From positions 1-64,000 of the forward strand of contig CANRZB010000012.1 in NCBI GenBank assembly GCA_947644195.1: DNA of 64,000 nucleotides, read 5' to 3'. Each line of letters opens with the position of its first letter. Position 1 is the stretch's first letter. Positions 7,107 through 46,720 of the stretch are shown here, in pieces. The position numbers and the translations under genes were made by a program. The notes beneath the pieces are model-generated. The model was not told the DNA's origin, did no database searches, and saw only the letters and a program-made list of their open reading frames with translations. The DNA is from an uncultured Clostridium sp. (GTDB taxonomy: Bacteria; Bacillota; Clostridia; Lachnospirales; Lachnospiraceae).

Positions 7107-8449
7107 GACGCCACCTCCTCTGATGTTTCCCCATCCTTTTCAGAGCTTTCCTGTTCCGCTGTAATTCCTTTTACCATCTGATCCAGCAAGATCTGCAAAT
7201 CTGTCCCGTCAGGATTCTTCGCCGCAATCTCTGTACCAAACAAATGAGTCGGTGTCCAAAAGGTATCCGCTACATTTTGCAAATGGCCAAATTCTGATTG
7301 TTCATTTAACGCTGCCATAACAGGATCAGATTCCACCTTGGCAGAAGATGCCGCCTTTACATTTGCTGGCCTCTCTCCCCGCATATCAAAACGCAGCTCC
7401 TGGTTTTTCTCATTTGTGATCCAACGCGCCAACCTCATTGCCCACTCTGGCTGCTCTACATTCGCATTGACACCGAGCAGTTTGAACCCGGTAAAACTAT
7501 GCATCTGTACCTGGTCTCCCGCCAATGTATAGGTCGGTAATTTAGCGGCTGCATAATTTTCCCCCCAGGCAGTTTCCAGATCTTTGGCGTCCCATGCCCC
7601 GCTGATCCCGGCAATCATGGTTCCCTTCTCTAAGGCATCCTGCTTAAACTCCTCGGTCGTCGCATTGCGGAAGCCTTCATGCGAAGCGATATCTAACAGC
7701 GCCTGTGCAACCTGCTTCCCGGTATATTTTGTACCAGCCAAATTCCAGTCGCACTCATTGGTACCCTTTTCTTCCTTCCACTCTACAGACAATCCGGCTC
7801 CCTTAAAGAACGAGTATAGATACCATCCACTGGAAAAATCCATGGAGACCTTCTTTCTCTGCTCTGCAGCAATCTGCAGTATTTGATCGAAGCTCTGTAC
7901 ATCCTCTTCCTTAAAATAAGACCGGTTATAATACAAGAAATATCCATTACTTGCCGTCGCCGGATAAGCATATAATTTACCGTCTTTCATAACAGATTTG
8001 GCGGCTTCACTCTGTTCCCCACCGCTGTCGCGGATAATGTCTTTCGCCTGATCCGTCACTTCCAGAAGTGCCCCCGCCTGCTGCAACGAATAAAACTGAT
8101 CTCCCGCAAACGCAAAGAGATCTGCCGCTGCTTTCGGATCAGCCAGCACCGTATCCCGGCAGGTCGTTTCATTTTCCTCACTCACGGTAATGTGGAAGTC
8201 TGCCTTTCCAGCATATTCTTGTTCAAAGGAATCAATGACCTTATGTAAAAATTCCTGGTCCTCTTTTGCACTCCAGATTGATAACTCCACCTCCGGCAGT
8301 TCCTTTTTCGACTGCCCACATCCTGACAGCACACCGAAACACAATACTAATGACATTCCAAAGGCTGTCAGCGCCTTTCCCAGGCGTTTCCGTCCTGCGG
8401 CGCTTTTCTCTTTTTCATTACATTCATCATGCTTTGCTTGTAAAATCAA
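7103..8449 (-). CDS. Sugar-type solute-binding lipoprotein
   Basis: This 448-residue protein is a family 1-like extracellular solute-binding protein. A basic n-region (GRKRLGK), a hydrophobic core and a lipobox (GVLSGC) lie near residues 20-44, so the mature protein should be a lipoprotein. The body contains typical motifs such as LYAYPATASNGYFLYYN. The only sensible in-frame start is TTG at 8449, with AGGAG 9 nt upstream and a good promoter at 8494-8522; no ATG gives a complete signal peptide. No ABC permease genes are adjacent. The next gene, overlapping by 4 nt, is a membrane HD-GYP sensor, which points to a sensing role rather than, or in addition to, transport. Confidence 0.88.
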   Translation of the reverse strand: MILQAKHDECNEKEKSAAGRKRLGKALTAFGMSLVLCFGVLSGCGQSKKELPEVELSIWSAKEDQEFLHKVIDSFEQEYAGKADFHITVSEENETTCRDTVLADPKAAADLFAFAGDQFYSLQQAGALLEVTDQAKDIIRDSGGEQSEAAKSVMKDGKLYAYPATASNGYFLYYNRSYFKEEDVQSFDQILQIAAEQRKKVSMDFSSGWYLYSFFKGAGLSVEWKEEKGTNECDWNLAGTKYTGKQVAQALLDIASHEGFRNATTEEFKQDALEKGTMIAGISGAWDAKDLETAWGENYAAAKLPTYTLAGDQVQMHSFTGFKLLGVNANVEQPEWAMRLARWITNEKNQELRFDMRGERPANVKAASSAKVESDPVMAALNEQSEFGHLQNVADTFWTPTHLFGTEIAAKNPDGTDLQILLDQMVKGITAEQESSEKDGETSEEVAS

Positions 8450-8493
8450 TGGTAAACTCTCCTAACCTTCTCATATTCCCCATAACCTATCTA

Positions 8494-8522
8494 AGTATAG
8501 CATACTTGCAGATATCTTTCCA
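8494..8522 (-). promoter_or_regulatory. Sigma-A type promoter for the SBP/HD-GYP/fucI operon
   Basis: On the minus strand TGGAAA and TATACT are spaced by 17 bp, and TGC directly precedes the -10, making it an extended -10. It lies about 45 nt upstream of the TTG start of the solute-binding protein gene. Confidence 0.65.
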
Positions 8523-8556
8523 GTAAAAATACCCCTAGCATCGCAGAGAACTTTCC

Positions 8557-9039
8557 CTATTTTTCCTCTGATTTCCGAAACAATTCACTGCGGTTTACAA
8601 AATATCTCCGACACATCAGAACAATGGCAACCGTGCTAATCACACCACCCAGATCATAAACCGTAAAGATCGGCAGCCCTATGACCAAAGAGGCCAGACC
8701 ATCGTAAATAAAATGATAGCACCCTGCCAATGAAATCACAGCGAGATAGACTGCTGGCGCTTTGGGATGAAAATACCAAAGCAGCTGTCGGGATATCACA
8801 GATAAAACAGCGATAGCAAATCCCAATACTGCCATAATTACCTCCACCTGTTTTAAGGTTGGATGTTCCGTATATAACGCCTCTGCAGTACCGAAACCAT
8901 ACAGCAGCCCCTGTAAATGCATCATCCCCTGTACCACATAGATCACCGCAAACGCAAATAAATGAAAATATACGGCAAACTGGTACCACTTCATCGGCTG
9001 CTGTGTCACAATCACTTTTTCTGCCACTTTATTCTCCAT
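8557..9039 (-). CDS. Small integral membrane protein, function unknown
   Basis: This 160-residue protein has about four predicted membrane helices (near residues 22-42, 66-86, 93-115 and 118-140) and a charged C-terminus. I do not recognise a family. The start has the RBS GGAGAGG 2-3 nt before the ATG-proximal bases, which is tight but workable. It lies between the alpha-galactosidase gene and the solute-binding operon on the same strand. The 52-nt gap to the GH27 stop allows co-transcription with it. No substrate or partner can be read from the sequence. Confidence 0.75.
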   Translation of the reverse strand: MENKVAEKVIVTQQPMKWYQFAVYFHLFAFAVIYVVQGMMHLQGLLYGFGTAEALYTEHPTLKQVEVIMAVLGFAIAVLSVISRQLLWYFHPKAPAVYLAVISLAGCYHFIYDGLASLVIGLPIFTVYDLGGVISTVAIVLMCRRYFVNRSELFRKSEEK

Positions 9040-37503: not shown

Positions 37504-39483
37504 CTATTCTCTCAATTGCTTCTTAATCAGCAACATCTCGTCACGCAGTTCCGCTGCCCGTTCAAAGTCCAACTCAGCTGCTGCCGTATGCATCTTCTGC
37601 GTTAATTTCTTCATCAGTTTTTCCAGATCCCGTCGACTCATAGATTCCAAATCTTTCTCAATCGTTCCGCTGCCTCCGTCTGCTTTCTTGGAAATACTGA
37701 TCAGATCTCTCACTGCTTTTTTAATGGTCTGCGGTGTAATATGATGTTCTTCATTATACTGCATCTGGATCTTGCGTCTACGGTTCGTTTCATCAATGGC
37801 CTTACGCATAGAATCTGTCATGATATCTCCATACATAATAACGCGCCCCTCTGCATTCCTGGCAGCACGTCCAATGATCTGCACCAGAGAAATCTCCGAC
37901 CGCAAAAACCCTTCTTTATCTGCATCCAGCACAGCAACCAATGCAATCTCCGGGATATCTAATCCCTCCCGTAATAAATTGATTCCCACCAGGACATCAA
38001 ACGCATCCAGACGCATATCCCGAATAATTTCAGAACGTTCCAGAGTATCAATATCGGAATGAAGATACCGAACCCGTATGCCCACTTCCTTGAGATAATC
38101 TGTCAAATCTTCTGCCATCCGTTTCGTCAAAGTATTTACCATTACTTTGTTACCTTCTTCAATGGTCTTGCGGATCTCTCCTAACAGATCATCAATCTGT
38201 CCCTCCACCGGGCGAACTTCCACTTCCGGATCTAACAGTCCCGTCGGACGGATGATCTGTTCGATCCGAGCCAACTCATGCTCCTCCTCATAGACATTAG
38301 GTGTCGCTGTCACAAACATCATTTGATTAATATGACTTTCAAATTCTTCAAAATTCAACGGACGGTTATCTAATGCAGAGGGCAGTCGGAAACCATATTC
38401 TACCAACGTCTGTTTTCTGGAACGGTCGCCGGCAAACATCCCCCGAATCTGCGGAATCGTCTTATGGGACTCGTCCACCATAATGATAAAATCTTCCGGA
38501 AAATAATCCATCAGGGTATGCGGTGTCTCTCCCGGCTGTAAACCTGCCAGATGCCTGGAGTAATTTTCCACCCCAGAACAAAAACCGGTTTCCCGCAGCA
38601 TTTCTACATCAAAATTTGTCCGTTCTGCAATTCGCTGCGCCTCCAATAATTTATCCTCACTGCGGAAATAGGAAACTCGTTCCTCAAGCTCCGTCTCAAT
38701 CGTACCGATCGCCCGTTCCAGGGATTCCTTATCCACAACGTAATGGGATGCCGGAAAAACCACCACATGCTCCAAATCCGCTTTAATTTCTCCCGTCAAT
38801 ACATCAATTTCCGTAATACGGTCTACTTCATCCCCAAAAAACTCAATCCGGATCGCCTTATCAGCCTCAGAAACCGGAAAAATCTCGACAACATCGCCGC
38901 GAACCCGGAATGTACCTCGCTGAAAATCCATATCATTGCGGTTGTACTGGATTTCAATCAACCGATGGATGACCTCATCCCGATCTTTCGTCATTCCCGG
39001 CCTCAACGAAACCGTCATATTCTGATAATCGATGGGACTGCCCAATCCATAGATACACGATACGCTGGCGACAATAATCACATCCCGACGCTCCGTCAGT
39101 GCTGCCGTAGCAGAATGACGCAGTTTATCAATCTCATCATTGATGGCACTGTCTTTTTCAATATACGTGTCTGAAGATGGAACATAGGCTTCTGGCTGGT
39201 AATAATCGTAGTAGGAGACAAAGTATTCCACTGCGTTACGAGGAAAAAATTCCTTAAATTCCCCGTATAACTGGGCTGCTAATGTTTTGTTATGTGCTAT
39301 GACAAGCGTTGGTTTATTTAATTGTTGGATGACATTTGCCATAGTAAAAGTTTTTCCAGAACCAGTGACACCAAGTAATGTCTGGAACTGGTTACCCTCC
39401 TTAAAACCTTTTACTAATTCCTCGATTGCCTGCGGCTGATCGCCGGTTGGAGCATATTGTGATACTAGTTCAAAATGATCCAT
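37504..39483 (-). CDS. uvrB: Excinuclease ABC subunit B
   Basis: This 659-residue protein is a complete UvrB. Walker [11 protein letters not shown] is at residues 38-46, the DNA-gripping beta-hairpin [20 protein letters not shown] at about 92-112, helicase motifs follow ([29 protein letters not shown]), and the UVR domain ends the protein ([18 protein letters not shown]). UvrB is the damage-verifying helicase-like subunit of nucleotide excision repair. The RBS AGGAGG is 7 nt before the ATG. No uvrA or uvrC is adjacent in the window. An AT-rich island is inserted directly upstream, and a piece of another uvrB lies within it (40878-41000). Confidence 0.98.
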
Positions 39484-39525
39484 AAAGCTTCCTCCTTTAT
39501 GAATTGATTAAATAATATACAATCT

Positions 39526-39777
39526 TTATTTTTCAATCATTCTTTTTAACTCTTTTACCTTCTTGTTTCGTTCTACATTGTCCAATTCCAATATTGACAG
39601 CAACAACATTTGATATGTCTCATCATACCACGATTCTAATTCCTCATCTGTCAAATTTGCAACATACCTTAATGCATTCTTTCCCTCTTTATTATTATGA
39701 CGGATATTCATTTTATTCAAAAGGTATCTTATGTTATCTTCTAAAATTGCATTCACTTTTTTCAACTCATTTTTCAC
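39526..39777 (-). CDS. Small AT-rich island protein, function unknown
   Basis: An 83-residue frame starting with GTG encodes a mainly helical, charged protein (KKVNAILEDNIRYLLNKMNI, then DEELESWYDETYQMLLLSIL). No family recognised. No RBS is visible before the GTG, so the true start may differ or initiation may be weak. A possible promoter (TTGTAT, 16 bp, TATAGT) spans 39806-39833. It ends 42 bp before uvrB and shares the low GC of the island, so it is probably acquired DNA. Confidence 0.55.
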   Translation of the reverse strand: MKNELKKVNAILEDNIRYLLNKMNIRHNNKEGKNALRYVANLTDEELESWYDETYQMLLLSILELDNVERNKKVKELKRMIEK

Positions 39778-39837
39778 TATAGTGTTACAAAGCCATATAA
39801 GATTTACTATATATTCTAAATAATTAAATACAATATT

Positions 39838-40773
39838 TTAGTTTCCATGACAGAGTTTAATATCATAATATGTAATAGACAGTCGTTTCCTTATATCATC
39901 ACAATTCGTACATCTTCCTCTAAATTTCCAATCGCGAATGCAATATGTATCTATCATCTCTTCTAAAGAATCATTATATATCGAATCTTCTGCCATCAGT
40001 TCAGCATAATCAATGAACATGGTTACCAGTCTATTTAAACGGGACAATTCCTTTTCATTTAAATAATTTTTGGCAATACCTATATCCCGCTTTAGCACTT
40101 TTCCATCTGGTGCATCCTTCCATGTTGTCAACCCCATAACTGGCTTTTCTGAATCCACATGCTCATATATTAATTCAGCCGCTGTCTTTCCAGTAACTGC
40201 AAAATGAAGCTTATTCTGAACAAAAGCATAAAAATTCTTTGTAATTTCACTGTTCTTATCATAATCATAGCTACATTGCTCAAATATATCCGTGATTTTC
40301 TGATAGGCTCTTCGCTCACTTGCCCTAATTTCCCGGATGCGTTCTAATAATTCATCAAAATAATCTTTTCCAAAGGGTTTGCCATTTTTTAACATATCAT
40401 CATTTAACACAAACCCCTTAATAATATACTCTTTTAATGTCTTCGTTGCCCACTGTCGAAACCTGGTGGCTTTTTTTGAATTTACACGATACCCTACAGC
40501 AATAATCGCATCCAAATTAAAGCATTTTACTTTTCGGCTAACATTTCTTCCTCCCTCATTTTGAACTACCGAGAAAAACTCGGCAGTTGCCTCTGCATCC
40601 AATTCTTCTTCTTTATAAATATTTTTCAAATGCAATGAAATATTATCTGCTGTACAATCAAATAATTCTGCCATTGCTCTTTGCGTCATCCAAAATGTCT
40701 CTTCTTTAAAAATAACATTCACATAAACATTTGTATCCTCTAACTGATATAATATAATCTCATGCTCCTGCAT
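39838..40773 (-). CDS. RhuM-family protein
   Basis: I start at the ATG at 40773 (311 residues), just after a purine-rich GGAGAGGCGGG; an upstream extension of 21 residues is less likely. The family pattern is clear: FWMTQRAMAELFDCTADNIS with a helix-turn-helix-like element, then a conserved SRKVKCFNLDAIIAVGYRVN segment and LKEYIIKGFVLND. RhuM proteins are named after a Salmonella pathogenicity-island gene and often sit in mobile or defence islands; their biochemical action is not established. It lies in the AT-rich island between uvrB and the ATPase/nuclease operon. Confidence 0.88.
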   Translation of the reverse strand: MQEHEIILYQLEDTNVYVNVIFKEETFWMTQRAMAELFDCTADNISLHLKNIYKEEELDAEATAEFFSVVQNEGGRNVSRKVKCFNLDAIIAVGYRVNSKKATRFRQWATKTLKEYIIKGFVLNDDMLKNGKPFGKDYFDELLERIREIRASERRAYQKITDIFEQCSYDYDKNSEITKNFYAFVQNKLHFAVTGKTAAELIYEHVDSEKPVMGLTTWKDAPDGKVLKRDIGIAKNYLNEKELSRLNRLVTMFIDYAELMAEDSIYNDSLEEMIDTYCIRDWKFRGRCTNCDDIRKRLSITYYDIKLCHGN

Positions 40774-40877
40774 AGATACCCGCCTCTCCAAATTATATAA
40801 CATAATATTTTTTCCATATAAAACAATAGCCCTCATCCATATAGTGTTATATAGTTCATTACACGAATCCAGGTCAC

Positions 40878-41000
40878 AAACTCCTTGAATTCTCCGTACA
40901 ACTGAGCAGCAAGCGTCTTGTTATGAGCAATAACAAGAGTTGGTTTCTGCAATTTCTGGATGACATTCGCCATCGTGAAAGTCTTGCCGGAGCCTGTAAC
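40878..41000 (-). pseudogene. Fragment of a foreign uvrB (41 codons)
   Basis: Read on the minus strand, these 123 bp encode [15 protein letters not shown] followed by [20 protein letters not shown] and GEFKEF, which equals residues 39-79 of UvrB. Compared by hand with the intact uvrB of this window, 39 of 41 residues are identical but about 29 of 123 bases differ, nearly all at third codon positions. It is therefore not a local copy but a piece of another species' uvrB, brought in with the island. The match starts and stops sharply; the left junction abuts the stop codon of the nuclease-like gene. Confidence 0.9.
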
Positions 41001-41001
41001 T

Positions 41002-41508
41002 CTATTCGCATGGCTGGATGGGAAACTTACCATACTCTTCATTGTTGTTCCATTCATCAATTGACAAAACAGCCATTTTTTCAATAAGTCTTCTGCCTTC
41101 TCCAATATTCTTTTGAAGAAGAAAAGGAAGTTTTTTCCTCATTTTATTTCTAATCATTTTTCTTGAAACAGAATCACCATTTGGATACTCCAATATGAAG
41201 ATATATTCTTTTGATTTTGTTTTTCCTTGCAAAGTCAAATAATGTAATGAATCATAAAACTTTTTAATAACATTATTAATCATTTTATCTTCTCCGGGCT
41301 TAAACGCTTCTGGTTTTTGTGCACCAGCTATATTCGCATTTTTATACTCTACAAGAATAATAATCTCATCCGTTTCCAAAACCCAATCAACATCACTTAA
41401 TAAGCATTTTGCTATATGATATTTTTCGTGTAATTTATCTGTTGCCCATAATGCTTTAGAACAATCAATTATATACTTTCCATTTTCTTCTGTAAAAACT
41501 TTTTCCAT
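41002..41508 (-). CDS. Candidate PD-(D/E)xK-like partner of the island ATPase
   Basis: This 168-residue protein has an early acidic segment and then [20 protein letters not shown] (about residues 39-58). The spacing Asp41 ... Glu54-x-Lys56 inside a strand-turn-strand context resembles the PD-(D/E)xK nuclease core. The rest is Lys-rich ([30 protein letters not shown]). I do not recognise a named family. It starts 3 nt after the ATPase stop, so both form one operon. The last codons stop at 41002, exactly where the foreign uvrB fragment starts, so a slight truncation cannot be excluded. Nuclease activity is inference. Confidence 0.75.
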
Positions 41509-41511
41509 ACG

Positions 41512-42540
41512 CTATTCTCCCAAATCATAAATCTCATCAAGCAACGCATCAAAAGACTCTATAATAAGATTATCTTTTAACCCATCAAATTTTGCTGCTG
41601 ACGAATATTCCACAATATCTCCATTGCGTCTAAACGAGTGAAAAATAAGAGAGATATCCTCCGTTTTTCTTGTTTCAAAATATTTTGCAAGCATGTAATC
41701 ATGCGTAGAAACAAAAATTTGCACACCATTTCGTTGTAATTCCACCAGCAACTCTACAATAATTGAAAGATATGCCGGATTGATATTTGCTTCAGGCTCA
41801 TCCCAGAAAAGTACAGAACCTTTTTCCAACGTCCCATTTTTTACCAGTTGCCACAGCAAAGCCATTTTACGTATTCCCTCAGCCACAAGATTAAACTCTT
41901 GCTTAGAATTCCCTTTTTTTAAATAAAATTCATCCTTTTTGCTATCATAATACACTGTACCATCAATGATTTTTTCAATTGCTTTCAAACGATTATCTCG
42001 ATCCGCACTATTACGTCCCACAGAAATATCTACTTTAGCTGAATTTATAATATCTATATAGGTATCATCAAAACGAACATTATCTTTTTCGGCCGCAGCA
42101 GCCAGATTAAAACCATTTGATAAAATTTCCTTAGCAGGAATAAAAATACTACTAATTTTATTAAATTCCTTTTCCCATGTGGCTTCTCCTTTTACAGAAG
42201 CCTCCCACTTTTTTGTCTTATTATTAAAATCCACGATTAAATTTCTAGTAGAAGAATTTTCATCCATTTTAGCTGAGATTTTTACTTTCGCATTATGATT
42301 TCCACGATTTCTCGTAATTAGCCTAGAAATTTTATAATCATCAGGCAACATTGTACGCACTATCTTGTTTGAAAATGAAACTTTTGGATTAGATGCCTGG
42401 CAAGCAGAATATACCATTTTTAAGATATGCGTTTTGCCTGTACCATTTTCTCCAATAAAAATATTAATTCCTTTATCAAAATGTATCTCTATATCTTTAA
42501 ATACTGTAAAATTTTCCAATGTAATCTGTGTAATATTCAA
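41512..42540 (-). CDS. ABC/SMC-like AAA ATPase of the island operon
   Basis: The frame reaches an ATG at 42555, but the RBS GGAGGTG lies inside it and 6 nt before a TTG at 42540, so I prefer the TTG (342 residues, beginning NITQITLENFTVFKDIEIHF). Walker A is GENGTGKTHILK (about residues 30-41). Near the C-terminus an ABC-type Walker B reads VLFWDEPEANINPAYLS, followed by the His switch (IFVSTHDYMLAKYF). This is the AAA_15/AAA_21 class found in OLD, RloA, Septu and similar phage-defence ATPases. It leads the two-gene operon from its own promoter. Confidence 0.88.
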   Translation of the reverse strand: MNITQITLENFTVFKDIEIHFDKGINIFIGENGTGKTHILKMVYSACQASNPKVSFSNKIVRTMLPDDYKISRLITRNRGNHNAKVKISAKMDENSSTRNLIVDFNNKTKKWEASVKGEATWEKEFNKISSIFIPAKEILSNGFNLAAAAEKDNVRFDDTYIDIINSAKVDISVGRNSADRDNRLKAIEKIIDGTVYYDSKKDEFYLKKGNSKQEFNLVAEGIRKMALLWQLVKNGTLEKGSVLFWDEPEANINPAYLSIIVELLVELQRNGVQIFVSTHDYMLAKYFETRKTEDISLIFHSFRRNGDIVEYSSAAKFDGLKDNLIIESFDALLDEIYDLGE

Positions 42541-42575
42541 CGTAGACACCTCCATTCAACATTTGTATCTATTCT

Positions 42576-42604
42576 ATCATAAGGGGAAAAACCTGAAAAG
42601 TCAA
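42576..42604 (-). promoter_or_regulatory. Promoter for the island ATPase operon
   Basis: On the minus strand TTGACT and TATGAT are separated by exactly 17 bp, about 36 nt upstream of the preferred start. The operon can therefore be expressed without read-through from the host genes. Confidence 0.7.
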
Positions 42605-42788
42605 AACAATATGCCCGCAACCATTCCATTCGCCCATCTTCCATTTATTCTATCCAAAAAAAAGCCAAATCTATTGATCAAAAATAAGATCCAGCTCTTC
42701 TCTTTAATTTATTCTATTGGTTCCAATCCGATTTCATCTGCCATAAAACACGCGAACTCCCATGCCTTACAACAAATTCACTCCCCCA

Positions 42789-44108
42789 CTACTCCGCCAA
42801 AGATTCCTCCTGTAGCTTATCAAATTCCTTCATACACTCGTCTACCGTCGCTCCGTTAAGCAGTTCCCGTACGATCAGACAGGTATTTCTCCATTGCTCC
42901 ACTTTCATTCCTGCATTAGCCCCAAGCACATAGACATTTTCCTCAATCTTGTCATTTAACGGCTTTAAGGCTGGAATACAATCCACCTGCACATTTTTAG
43001 AGGGAGAAATTACTTTGTTGGTTTCCGTATAGGTCTGAAGCGCTTTGTCCGATAAAATCACATCCAAAACACGTATGGCGTCTTCCTTGTGTTCCGCTTC
43101 TGCACCGATTCCAAAACCTGTCATCGGCAAAACAGGCATTTGTCCTCGACTGCTCGGGAAACCAATTACCTGCATATTAAAATCTGGATTTCCATAGGCG
43201 GTATCTGTATTGGCAGCGCCCCAGTATGCCATCACAATAGGCGTCTTTTGGGCCAGAAAATCTGCGCCCTCTCCCTCAATTGCCTCACTCCTGTAAGCTT
43301 TTTTTGCATCAATATAACCACAGTCAATCATTTCCTGAAGAAACTCAAAGCCGGCACGCATATAATCACTATATTTGCTTTCTCCACTATTGAGTGCTGC
43401 AATCTCTGCTTCCGTGTTTCCTCCATTATATAGATCCGCATATGCCTGTGCCAAAACAAACGTCTCCAGCCACCAGCGATTTGCTCCCACCGGTGTCTCA
43501 ATTCCATTTTCTTTCAATACCCTGCAACATTCCAAAAATTCTTCGGGCTTCTCTGGCAATTCCAGATGGTACTGATCGAACATATCCTTGTTAATAAACA
43601 AACCGTAAGCCACTACCTCCTGAGGAATCCCAACCAGTTTTCCATCAATCGTATTTGCCGTTTTCACGACATCCCGCAAATTCTTTACACACTCCAACCC
43701 CGACAGATCCATCAGTTTCTCCTCATCTCCCAGAAGCCGGATCGTATCTGGATTGAGCAGATAGATATCATCCATATTGTTGCGTGCCCTGCTCAAAGTA
43801 ACATCATCATATGTCTTATCCTGATAATCTTCCGCCGTATAAGTGATATAATTTACAGTTAAATCCAATTTCTCCTCGGCCATATGAATCGTTTTATCCG
43901 CAGCGCTCCTCGCCACATTCTCCGCATCGGGATCTGTTTTTTCCATGGGACTGAACAGATTGACAAAACGTCCGTTCTCTTCTTTGGGAACCACCAAGTT
44001 CATATCGGATTGCTTTTCTTTCCCGCATGCTGTCACCAAAAATAACAGTGATCCCATCAAACATACCATCGTAACTCTCTGTAATACTTTCCTGTTCCTT
44101 ATATTCAT
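42789..44108 (-). CDS. Sugar-type solute-binding lipoprotein
   Basis: I start at the ATG at 44108 (439 residues), with AAGGA just upstream and 11 nt after the stop of the histidine kinase gene. A signal sequence ends in the lipobox LFLVTAC (about residues 25-31). The mature part is an extracellular family 1-like solute-binding protein (SGLECVKNLRDVVKTANTID, VAYGLFINKDMFDQYHLELP, MTGFGIGAEAEHKEDAIRVL). No permease gene is adjacent. Its neighbour is the disrupted sensor kinase, which would have been a natural partner for a sensory binding protein. Confidence 0.88.
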   Translation of the reverse strand: MNIRNRKVLQRVTMVCLMGSLLFLVTACGKEKQSDMNLVVPKEENGRFVNLFSPMEKTDPDAENVARSAADKTIHMAEEKLDLTVNYITYTAEDYQDKTYDDVTLSRARNNMDDIYLLNPDTIRLLGDEEKLMDLSGLECVKNLRDVVKTANTIDGKLVGIPQEVVAYGLFINKDMFDQYHLELPEKPEEFLECCRVLKENGIETPVGANRWWLETFVLAQAYADLYNGGNTEAEIAALNSGESKYSDYMRAGFEFLQEMIDCGYIDAKKAYRSEAIEGEGADFLAQKTPIVMAYWGAANTDTAYGNPDFNMQVIGFPSSRGQMPVLPMTGFGIGAEAEHKEDAIRVLDVILSDKALQTYTETNKVISPSKNVQVDCIPALKPLNDKIEENVYVLGANAGMKVEQWRNTCLIVRELLNGATVDECMKEFDKLQEESLAE

Positions 44109-44118
44109 AGTTTCCTTT

Positions 44119-46720
44119 TTACTCCTCATTTATTTTTTCTGTCTCCTTATGAATAAACTCTTTTACCGCTTTTTTTAACAAATCCATTTCAACCGGCTTG
44201 GCTAAATGGATATTCATCCCCGCTTGTAACGCCTCTTTTTCATCTTCCGCAAAAGCGTTCGCCGTCATTGCAAAAATAGGAATCTCCGTGGCATCTTTTC
44301 TATCTAGCGCTCTAATCGCCCTGGTTGCATCATAACCGTTCATAACCGGCATCTGCACATCCATGAGAATGGCGTCAAATTCCCCTTCTGCCGATTCTGT
44401 AAAACACTCCACTACCAACTGGCCATTTTCGGCAATTTCACAACTGGCACCCTCGATCGACAAAATTTCGGAAAGAATTTCCGCATTGATTTCATTATCC
44501 TCTGCAGCCAGAAAATGCAGACCCTGTAAAATATTTTTTTCCTCTGGCTCTGAATCTACGTCTTTCCCGGATTCTTCCTTTTGAATCTCCATTACCTTTT
44601 CTTTCAGATCGGAAACAAAAATTGGTTTTACAATTCCTCCCGTATATCCAAACCGTAGAATCTCCTCTATATCATCCAAAGAGTCTTCATTATGGTCGGT
44701 CATCAGTAAGAGAATCGTTGTTTCTGGCAGAGCTTTCCGAATTCTTCCTGCCATTTGTGCACTGCTGGCATCCTGGGAGTTCCAATCAAGCAAAACCAGC
44801 TGATAACTGCTGTCCATACTAGCGACATCCTCTATCTTCTGCAGGGCTTCCTCCGCCTGAAGTGCGATATCAGTCACGATTCCCATATCTCCCATAAACG
44901 TCTGAATATTTTTAATTTCCTGCACATTCTCATCCACAGACAGGATACGGGAGATTCCACTTTTTTCCCAGAACATCTTATCTGCTTGACTTTCGGATAT
45001 TCTGAGCTCAATTTCTACTCGGAATAGACTTCCCTGATCAATCTCACTGAATACTTCAATCGTTCCTCCCATCAATTCCACTATATTTTTGGTAATCGCC
45101 ATTCCAAGTCCGGTGCCCTGCACCTTATTCGTCGTACTGTTTTCCGCCCTCGTAAAGACATCAAAAATAGTCTTTAAATAATCTTTCGTCATTCCATAGC
45201 CGTCGTCTTCCACTTCAATCCGAATACGCTCAAACTGGCTGGAATGTTGCTTCAAGCCAATAATTCGGAACCAGATATTTCCTCCCTCCTGCGTATACTT
45301 GACCGCATTGGAGAGCAGATTAATCAGAATTTGGTTAATTCTTGTCTCATCGCCCAGAAGGTATTCATGTTTCATATCCATTATTTCTACATGAAATTCC
45401 TGTCCCTTGGCGCTCGCCATCGGACGAACGATGGCATCGATAGAAGACACCAAACTATTTAATGCAAACTCCTCTTTGGCTAGCACTACTTTTCCGCTTT
45501 CAATTTTGGAAACCTCCAAGATATCATTAATCAAGCTAAGCAAATGTTGTCCCGATGCCATTATCTTTTTCGTATATTCCCGCACCTTATCGGGATTTTC
45601 CGCATCCTTTTCCAGCAGAGTGGTAAAACCAATCACAGCATTCATCGGTGTGCGGATATCATGGGACATATTCGATAAAAACATGGTCTTGGCATTACTG
45701 GCAAGCTGCGCTGCATGTAACGCCTCTGTCAGCTCTTTGTTATACCGTTCCCGTTCCGCTTCCCGCTCCCGAATCACTTTTCTCTGTTGCCGCTGATTGA
45801 GAGAATACAGAATACAACACAGAGCAAATGCGCTCATCATCATGGCCACAACTATAAAAATATTATAGTTGACCGTCTTTCCCTCCTGTTGGATCGCCTC
45901 TCTTGGCACATATCCAATCAGACAGATGGTGCCTTTATTTACCATCCATATAAAATTCAGTGAACTTTTCCCCCGTATATCATGATAAAACATGATATTG
46001 TTTCTTTCCTTCACACAATTTTCAATTTCTTTTCGTAAATCCTGCTCATGAATATTATTCGCCCGGTAAAAATCCTCTAAATTCAAGTGCCCTGCATTAC
46101 GCTCCCCCATCCCCTTTGGTTTCAGCACAAATCGCTGCGTTTACGCATCCATAATATAGAGCATGGCTTTTTTGTTGTAGAATCCCTCAGGGAGTGACTT
46201 ATCCAAAGAGTCATACGTGTATTCGACATAAAGCGTACCAATCTCCTTGCCTTCTTTCGCCACAGGACATTTCATGGAATAAGCCCAGGTTCCCATATAA
46301 TTCAAATAGGAACTAGAAATTTCCAGGCCATCTATCATTTCACTCCAAACAGGGTCTATTCCCTCCTCGGAAAAAACCTCCCCTGTATTGGATATTCCTT
46401 TCCTCTTTCCGGTAGCAATCCATGAAACTTTTACCATGGTTTGATTTTTCTGATAAGAGCGTATATAAGCCTCCGGGTCGTCCACCATAGCGATTTCCTG
46501 TGCCATAAGCATCTGAAATTCCGCTTCCTTGTTCCAAATGGACTCAATGGTACATTTAATTAAGTCCAGGTTTTCATTAAGGTTCTGAATTGCGGCTTGG
46601 GACATTTCCCTGGAAGTTTTTTGGGACACCAGAAAAACAATACTCCCAAAAAAACAAAACACTAATCCAAAAAAACTTTCTGTCTGCTTTGTATGTCATT
46701 ATTTTTTTCTTCATCTTCAT
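44119..46720 (-). pseudogene. Hybrid sensor histidine kinase, disrupted by a frameshift and an in-frame stop
   Basis: Read together the frames encode a ~860-residue protein: membrane helix, extracellular sensor domain, second helix, HisKA (NMSHDIRTPMNAVIGF), HATPase (LINLLSNAVKYT, GTGLGMAI), a degenerate receiver and an intact receiver (AAEDNEIN, MDVQMPVMNGYDATRA). Two lesions split it. First, the ATG frame from 46720 and the sensor frame are joined only by removing one base from an A7 run at 46648-46654. Second, a TAA at 46141-46143 sits in frame inside the sensor (MDA-stop-TQRFVLKPKG). The kinase half (44119-46128, GTG start) could still be made, but it would lack most of its sensor. Confidence 0.82.

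Follow-up and report, generated by a model that had tools for sequence, protein, structure and literature searches.

Integrative and conjugative elements (ICEs) of the SXT/R391 type integrate in the 5' end of prfC, with the element supplying a new 5' end for the gene. In streptococci, cis-mobilizable elements (CIMEs) and accretion at ICE sites give short, stackable islands that lie between attachment repeats and carry no recombinase genes. Here we compare with these systems an AT-rich stretch upstream of uvrB in 64,000 nt of DNA (the window) from an uncultured Clostridium sp. of the family Lachnospiraceae (genome G000; below, G labels genomes and L labels loci fetched for comparison). The stretch holds genes for an ATPase and a small protein, a pair that is not new, matching as it does the candidate defence system HEC-02 already catalogued in PADLOC, and it has the appearance of remnants stacked up where insertions into uvrB recur. 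We consider it probable that the locus joins decayed remnants of elements that integrate at uvrB with an ATPase-controlled nuclease pair, both layers taken together.

The proposed uvrB elements would resemble SXT/R391-type ICEs in using a site near the 5' end of a housekeeping gene and in bringing a replacement 5' end; they would differ in their target (uvrB, about 91 codons in), in their two tandem tyrosine recombinases and in their hosts. The islands at uvrB are like CIMEs in being short, repeat-bounded, stackable and free of recombinase genes, whereas their cargo is mostly defence-like and their repeats consist of uvrB 5' coding sequence. Such uvrB-targeted elements look undescribed in the open-access literature searched, where no report of uvrB as an attachment site was found (this literature alone does not prove novelty); the retrieved portions of PMC4894674, PMC7466150 and PMC6543542 mention uvrB in other senses.

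Free copies of the uvrB 5' end recur across the family. Using the first 95 residues of UvrB as the query against 397 Lachnospiraceae genomes, we obtained matches in 373, of which 43 had at least two. Closer inspection covered 42 of these 43 together with G006 and left G002, G310, G523 and G644 out of the count, their second match not being a free 5' piece; by reading of the matches, 39 of the 397 genomes, the window's included, carry a free piece. An apparent insertion of about 100 residues in the UvrB of G002, G310 and G584 was rejected as runs of N. The left ends of the pieces vary, whereas 40 of 46 short-frame rows (two of the 40 from G676) end at codon 90-95. The other six comprise a uvrB cut by a contig end, a split uvrB, the left half of a piece already counted, the G545 piece, which is frameshifted though its DNA reaches the break, and the pieces of G659 and G550, which end earlier. 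At the DNA level, all 22 pieces in fetched loci cross TTTGTCTCCTA or a close variant of it and lose their similarity within about 9 nt. Of the 23 pairs in which a piece lies on the same contig as uvrB (window counted), 20 have the piece 5' of the gene and in the same orientation, as direct repeats; the exceptions are two pieces in G453 and one in G676, the latter lying 45.9 kb 5' of uvrB if the contig is a closed circle. Intervals between piece and uvrB range from 531 bp to 216,513 bp. The two G453 pieces (L151) flank a RhuM-like gene at a distance of 2.7 kb from each other, some 4 Mb from uvrB.

Past the break, the pieces run into a conserved left end of about 150 bp, and a profile of 22 such sequences finds two loci beyond its training set (L168, 2.1e-33; L183, 3.8e-26). 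Genes for two tyrosine recombinases immediately precede uvrB in G024. The second of these, Int2, has 31 matches in 27 of the 397 genomes, 30 of them with a fetched locus, and a second recombinase gene is present in at least 18 of these 30 loci. Among the Int2 loci with more than 500 bp downstream, 25 of 28 show a same-strand uvrB 5' end 289-1439 bp further on (L160, L178 and L181 do not); the loci are not all independent, since they include near copies (G437, G547) and some come from one genome. A single stretch of L152 unites the recombinases with uvrB codons 1-92 and with the left end, an order as expected of an excised or tandem element, and this left end is the same one that opens an element in G437. 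The G437 element spans 127,921 bp between its repeats, with int2 adjoining uvrB, and the ten of its proteins that were scanned include a type IV secretion system coupling protein (1.8e-41) and a TraG P-loop protein (1.6e-17), with no relaxase identified among them. It thus has the recombinase, flanking repeats and conjugation genes of an integrative conjugative element. Four recombinase homologues (29-35% identity) come from four genomes outside the family, and none is near a convincing uvrB; within this sample, the association with uvrB therefore appears confined to the family.

From these patterns we infer a scheme in which each element would carry the two tandem recombinases and, after them, a copy of uvrB codons 1 to ~91. 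A crossover at codons 88-91 between this copy and the host gene would give the order old uvrB 5' piece, left end, cargo, recombinases, and an element-borne 5' end continuing into the remainder of uvrB. The gene would stay whole, and the displaced 5' end would remain as a direct repeat. With later loss of recombinases and repeat ends by deletion, short defence-cargo islands would remain.

Seven short islands have both ends. Six lack a recombinase of this kind, and the seventh, L146, has a C-terminal stub, as descent of the short islands from full elements would predict; the L146 stub (G319) comes from the second recombinase and lies just upstream of uvrB. Ten cargo proteins were scanned, one of them from L144, outside the seven islands, and seven of the ten fit PADLOC models with E values of at most 1e-10 (PDC-S02, PDC-M62A, PDC-M62B, AbiLi, AbiLii, PDC-M28C and PDC-M69B). 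In G673 (L145:3965-6111), an AbiL-like ATPase and its partner lie between uvrB piece and uvrB, and a transposase-like gene is present in the same island. If the scheme is correct, elements with candidate defence genes in gut-associated bacteria would have a specific attachment site, core and recombinase pair, the short AT-rich islands upstream of uvrB would be explained, and new defence cassettes could be found by position, between uvrB 5' repeats. It also raises the question of whether DNA repair is altered when an element supplies the promoter and N-terminus of uvrB.

In the window, the G+C content of positions 39484-42788 is 0.326, against 0.438 for the whole window, and none of 243 stretches of equal length is as low, in agreement with the AT-rich stretch upstream of uvrB reported in a first-pass annotation of this DNA. 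That annotation had read the stretch as a single island completed by a RhuM gene and an unknown gene. The genes are there; a 123-bp piece of uvrB, which it had not recorded, lies between the HEC-02 pair and the RhuM gene and splits the stretch, so that it does not form one island. This piece (G+C 0.447), which starts 2 bp past the small protein's stop codon, is 77% identical to the window's own uvrB and 85% identical to the uvrB of two other species of the genus. Joined to it across GGAGTTT are 28 bp of the conserved left end, kept exactly (0.00 expected in shuffles), a junction from which it follows that a deletion probably took the crossover core together with the bulk of the left end. A further feature new to the locus is the match of the RhuM gene to relatives, which ends at 39971. 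Positions 40884-39971 are 90.7% identical over 917 bp to L156 of G545, from another genus, where the RhuM-matching DNA lies between a uvrB piece and uvrB; similar RhuM DNA lies near uvrB or a uvrB piece in loci of nine other genomes.

The two-gene operon with a 3-nt gap between ATPase and 168-residue protein is intact, with both open reading frames (ORFs) confirmed. Both proteins had been proposed as defence candidates, and both match PADLOC models of the candidate system HEC-02, which is reportedly from a 2024 preprint by Payne et al.: the ATPase matches HEC-02A (PDLC04213; E 1.6e-121, residues 7-343) and the small protein HEC-02B (PDLC04226; E 4.5e-77, residues 1-167). Given the latter match, the earlier view that the partner is unlike known defence proteins is not supported. 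The matches are full length and the order is the same, ATPase then small protein; no difference from HEC-02 was found. In the open-access literature search no paper on the system was found, and the retrieved portions of two articles name HEC-04 (PMC12111858) and HEC-06 (PMC12988326). The pair recurs, at 54 loci, in 49 of which the ATPase adjoins the small protein; the HEC-02B model matches 8 of 392 genomes of the order, and the pair is therefore not strain-specific. Neither phages nor plasmids gave a match to the small protein, and no relative turned up in viral contigs. Like Septu, Gabija/OLD and PARIS, the pair combines an ABC-type ATPase with a putative effector, and the ATPase has weaker matches to PtuA, GajA and AriA; unlike in Septu and Gabija/OLD, its partner matches neither HNH nor TOPRIM families in Pfam up to E 1.

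In the ATPase, the Walker A residues G35, N37, G38, G40, K41 and T42, together with D252-E253 and H285, are kept in all 44 rows of at least 290 residues. The D-x12-E-x-K motif of the small protein, which the first-pass annotation had placed in a PD-(D/E)xK-like setting, is conserved, and the predicted fold is compatible with that placement: D41, E54 and K56 are kept in 45, 44 and 44 of 45 rows of at least 140 residues (window counted), the sole exception at E54 and K56 being a truncated fusion, L083. In that locus (8001-8783), by eye, the first third of a HEC-02B-like protein is fused in frame to response-regulator-like sequence; in L084 (1935-4867), HEC-02B-like sequence occurs in two parts about 2.4 kb apart. 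The structure was predicted from 28 sequences, replacing a 6-sequence model with a predicted local distance difference test (pLDDT) score of 75.4; the model appears to have a PD-(D/E)xK-like fold, and the top matches are mostly PD-(D/E)xK nucleases. The conservation of the pair and its confident model favour a nuclease effector, and the ATPase may sense an infection cue and control this putative small nuclease.

The uvrB gene of the window may itself be chimeric. Its identity to uvrB of G689, from another genus, is 87.9% over codons 4-91 and 69.8% over codons 92-500, whereas against G010, of the same genus, it is 74.6% over codons 4-91 and 81.1% for later codons; G689-type genomes were chosen for 5' similarity to the window's uvrB, and the 5' end of G010 may itself be imported, since G010 has RhuM at uvrB. 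Ten native/donor tests of uvrB each gave 0 of 2000 permutations. The pattern is supportive of an element-borne 5' end, though no proof. Several observations weigh against decayed element remnants at this locus: (i) The native/donor breakpoints are scattered from codon 60 to codon 174. (ii) Three of seven controls also reach 0-1 of 2000 permutations. (iii) The piece in the window spans codons 39-79 alone, without the break point. (iv) No recombinase was found, with no int2 homologue in G000 at E 1e-40 and none in the island at E 0.05; G000 was not searched for conjugation genes. (v) Elsewhere the HEC-02 pair occurs at a distance from uvrB, with varied neighbours and with no uvrB in the retrieved flanks of any of the 54 loci.

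The last of these observations also bears on the alternative that survives best, namely that the HEC-02 pair arrived independently of the uvrB elements, through a separate acquisition upstream, and now does no more than adjoin them. The pair sits just outside the repeat-bounded part, between the uvrB piece and the host-side gene and not between two repeats, as such an origin would allow; the 2-bp spacing from stop codon to piece speaks against it, as does the stacking of remnants at the uvrB site elsewhere, with the cargo of G453 between two pieces. We give this alternative slightly less than an even chance. A wider proposal is possible, if on balance somewhat improbable: uvrB would be the attachment gene for a family of conjugative elements in Lachnospiraceae, which exchange its promoter and first ~91 codons for their own, and the recombinase-less defence cassettes at the same site, with uvrB 5' repeats on either side, would be moved in trans by co-resident elements. 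Besides importing defence, such an element would bring the expression of a host DNA-repair gene under its own control.

That the small protein is a regulator or toxin-neutralising partner of the ATPase and not a nuclease effector seems unlikely, given the near-invariance of D41, E54 and K56 and the predominance of PD-(D/E)xK nucleases among the top matches. More unlikely still is an ordinary accessory defence island whose uvrB piece arose by chance homologous or illegitimate recombination across species, without site-specific integration: points (iii) to (v) would fit it, but it is at odds with the clustering of piece ends at codons 90-95, the common left end, the recombinase pair just upstream of uvrB 5' ends and the exact 28 bp in the window.

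Table 1. Features at and upstream of uvrB in the window, listed from the upstream neighbour of the pair to uvrB.
Feature	Position	Strand	Basis or remark
Solute-binding protein gene	42789-44129	minus	Upstream neighbour of ATPase gene
HEC-02A-like ABC-type ATPase	41512-42540 (ORF can start at 42555)	minus	PADLOC match and motifs
HEC-02B-like small protein with predicted nuclease fold, 168 aa	41002-41508	minus	PADLOC match
uvrB piece, about codons 39-79	40878-41000	minus, same as uvrB	77% identity to own uvrB, 39247-39369
28-bp remnant of element left end	40857-40884	minus	Exact match to left ends of L126 and L157
RhuM (PADLOC PDC-S05), 3' end unlike relatives	39838-40836	minus	Profile match
83-aa ORF	39526-39777	minus	ORF only
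uvrB codons 1-91, proposed element-borne 5' end	39211-39483	minus	Shift in similarity pattern
Proposed crossover core TTTGTCTCCTA, codons 88-91	39212-39222	minus	Common break position of uvrB pieces
uvrB, open over 659 codons	37504-39483	minus	ORF

Among the remaining features, neither the 83-aa ORF (by tblastn) nor the RhuM tail has a match in 196 other loci, and profile searches gave no convincing family match for the ORF. No tRNA genes were found in the 64-kb window. A promoter had been assigned to the operon, and the sequence TTGACT-17-TATGAT does exist at 42604-42576; it does not stand out from chance, with 17 promoter-like sites in the region against 17.2 expected from shuffles. Two genes upstream of the pair, the window encodes a sensor-kinase-like protein (46141-46662); a similar gene lies 0.7-6.4 kb from HEC-02 in four other loci (L041:4560-7151 and three others), which may be chance in so large a family. 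Finally, the longest ORF of the ATPase, 41512-42555, begins with ATG at 42555, but a start at the TTG at 42540, the position given in the first-pass annotation, which yields 342 residues, is more likely because GGAGGTG lies directly upstream of that codon.
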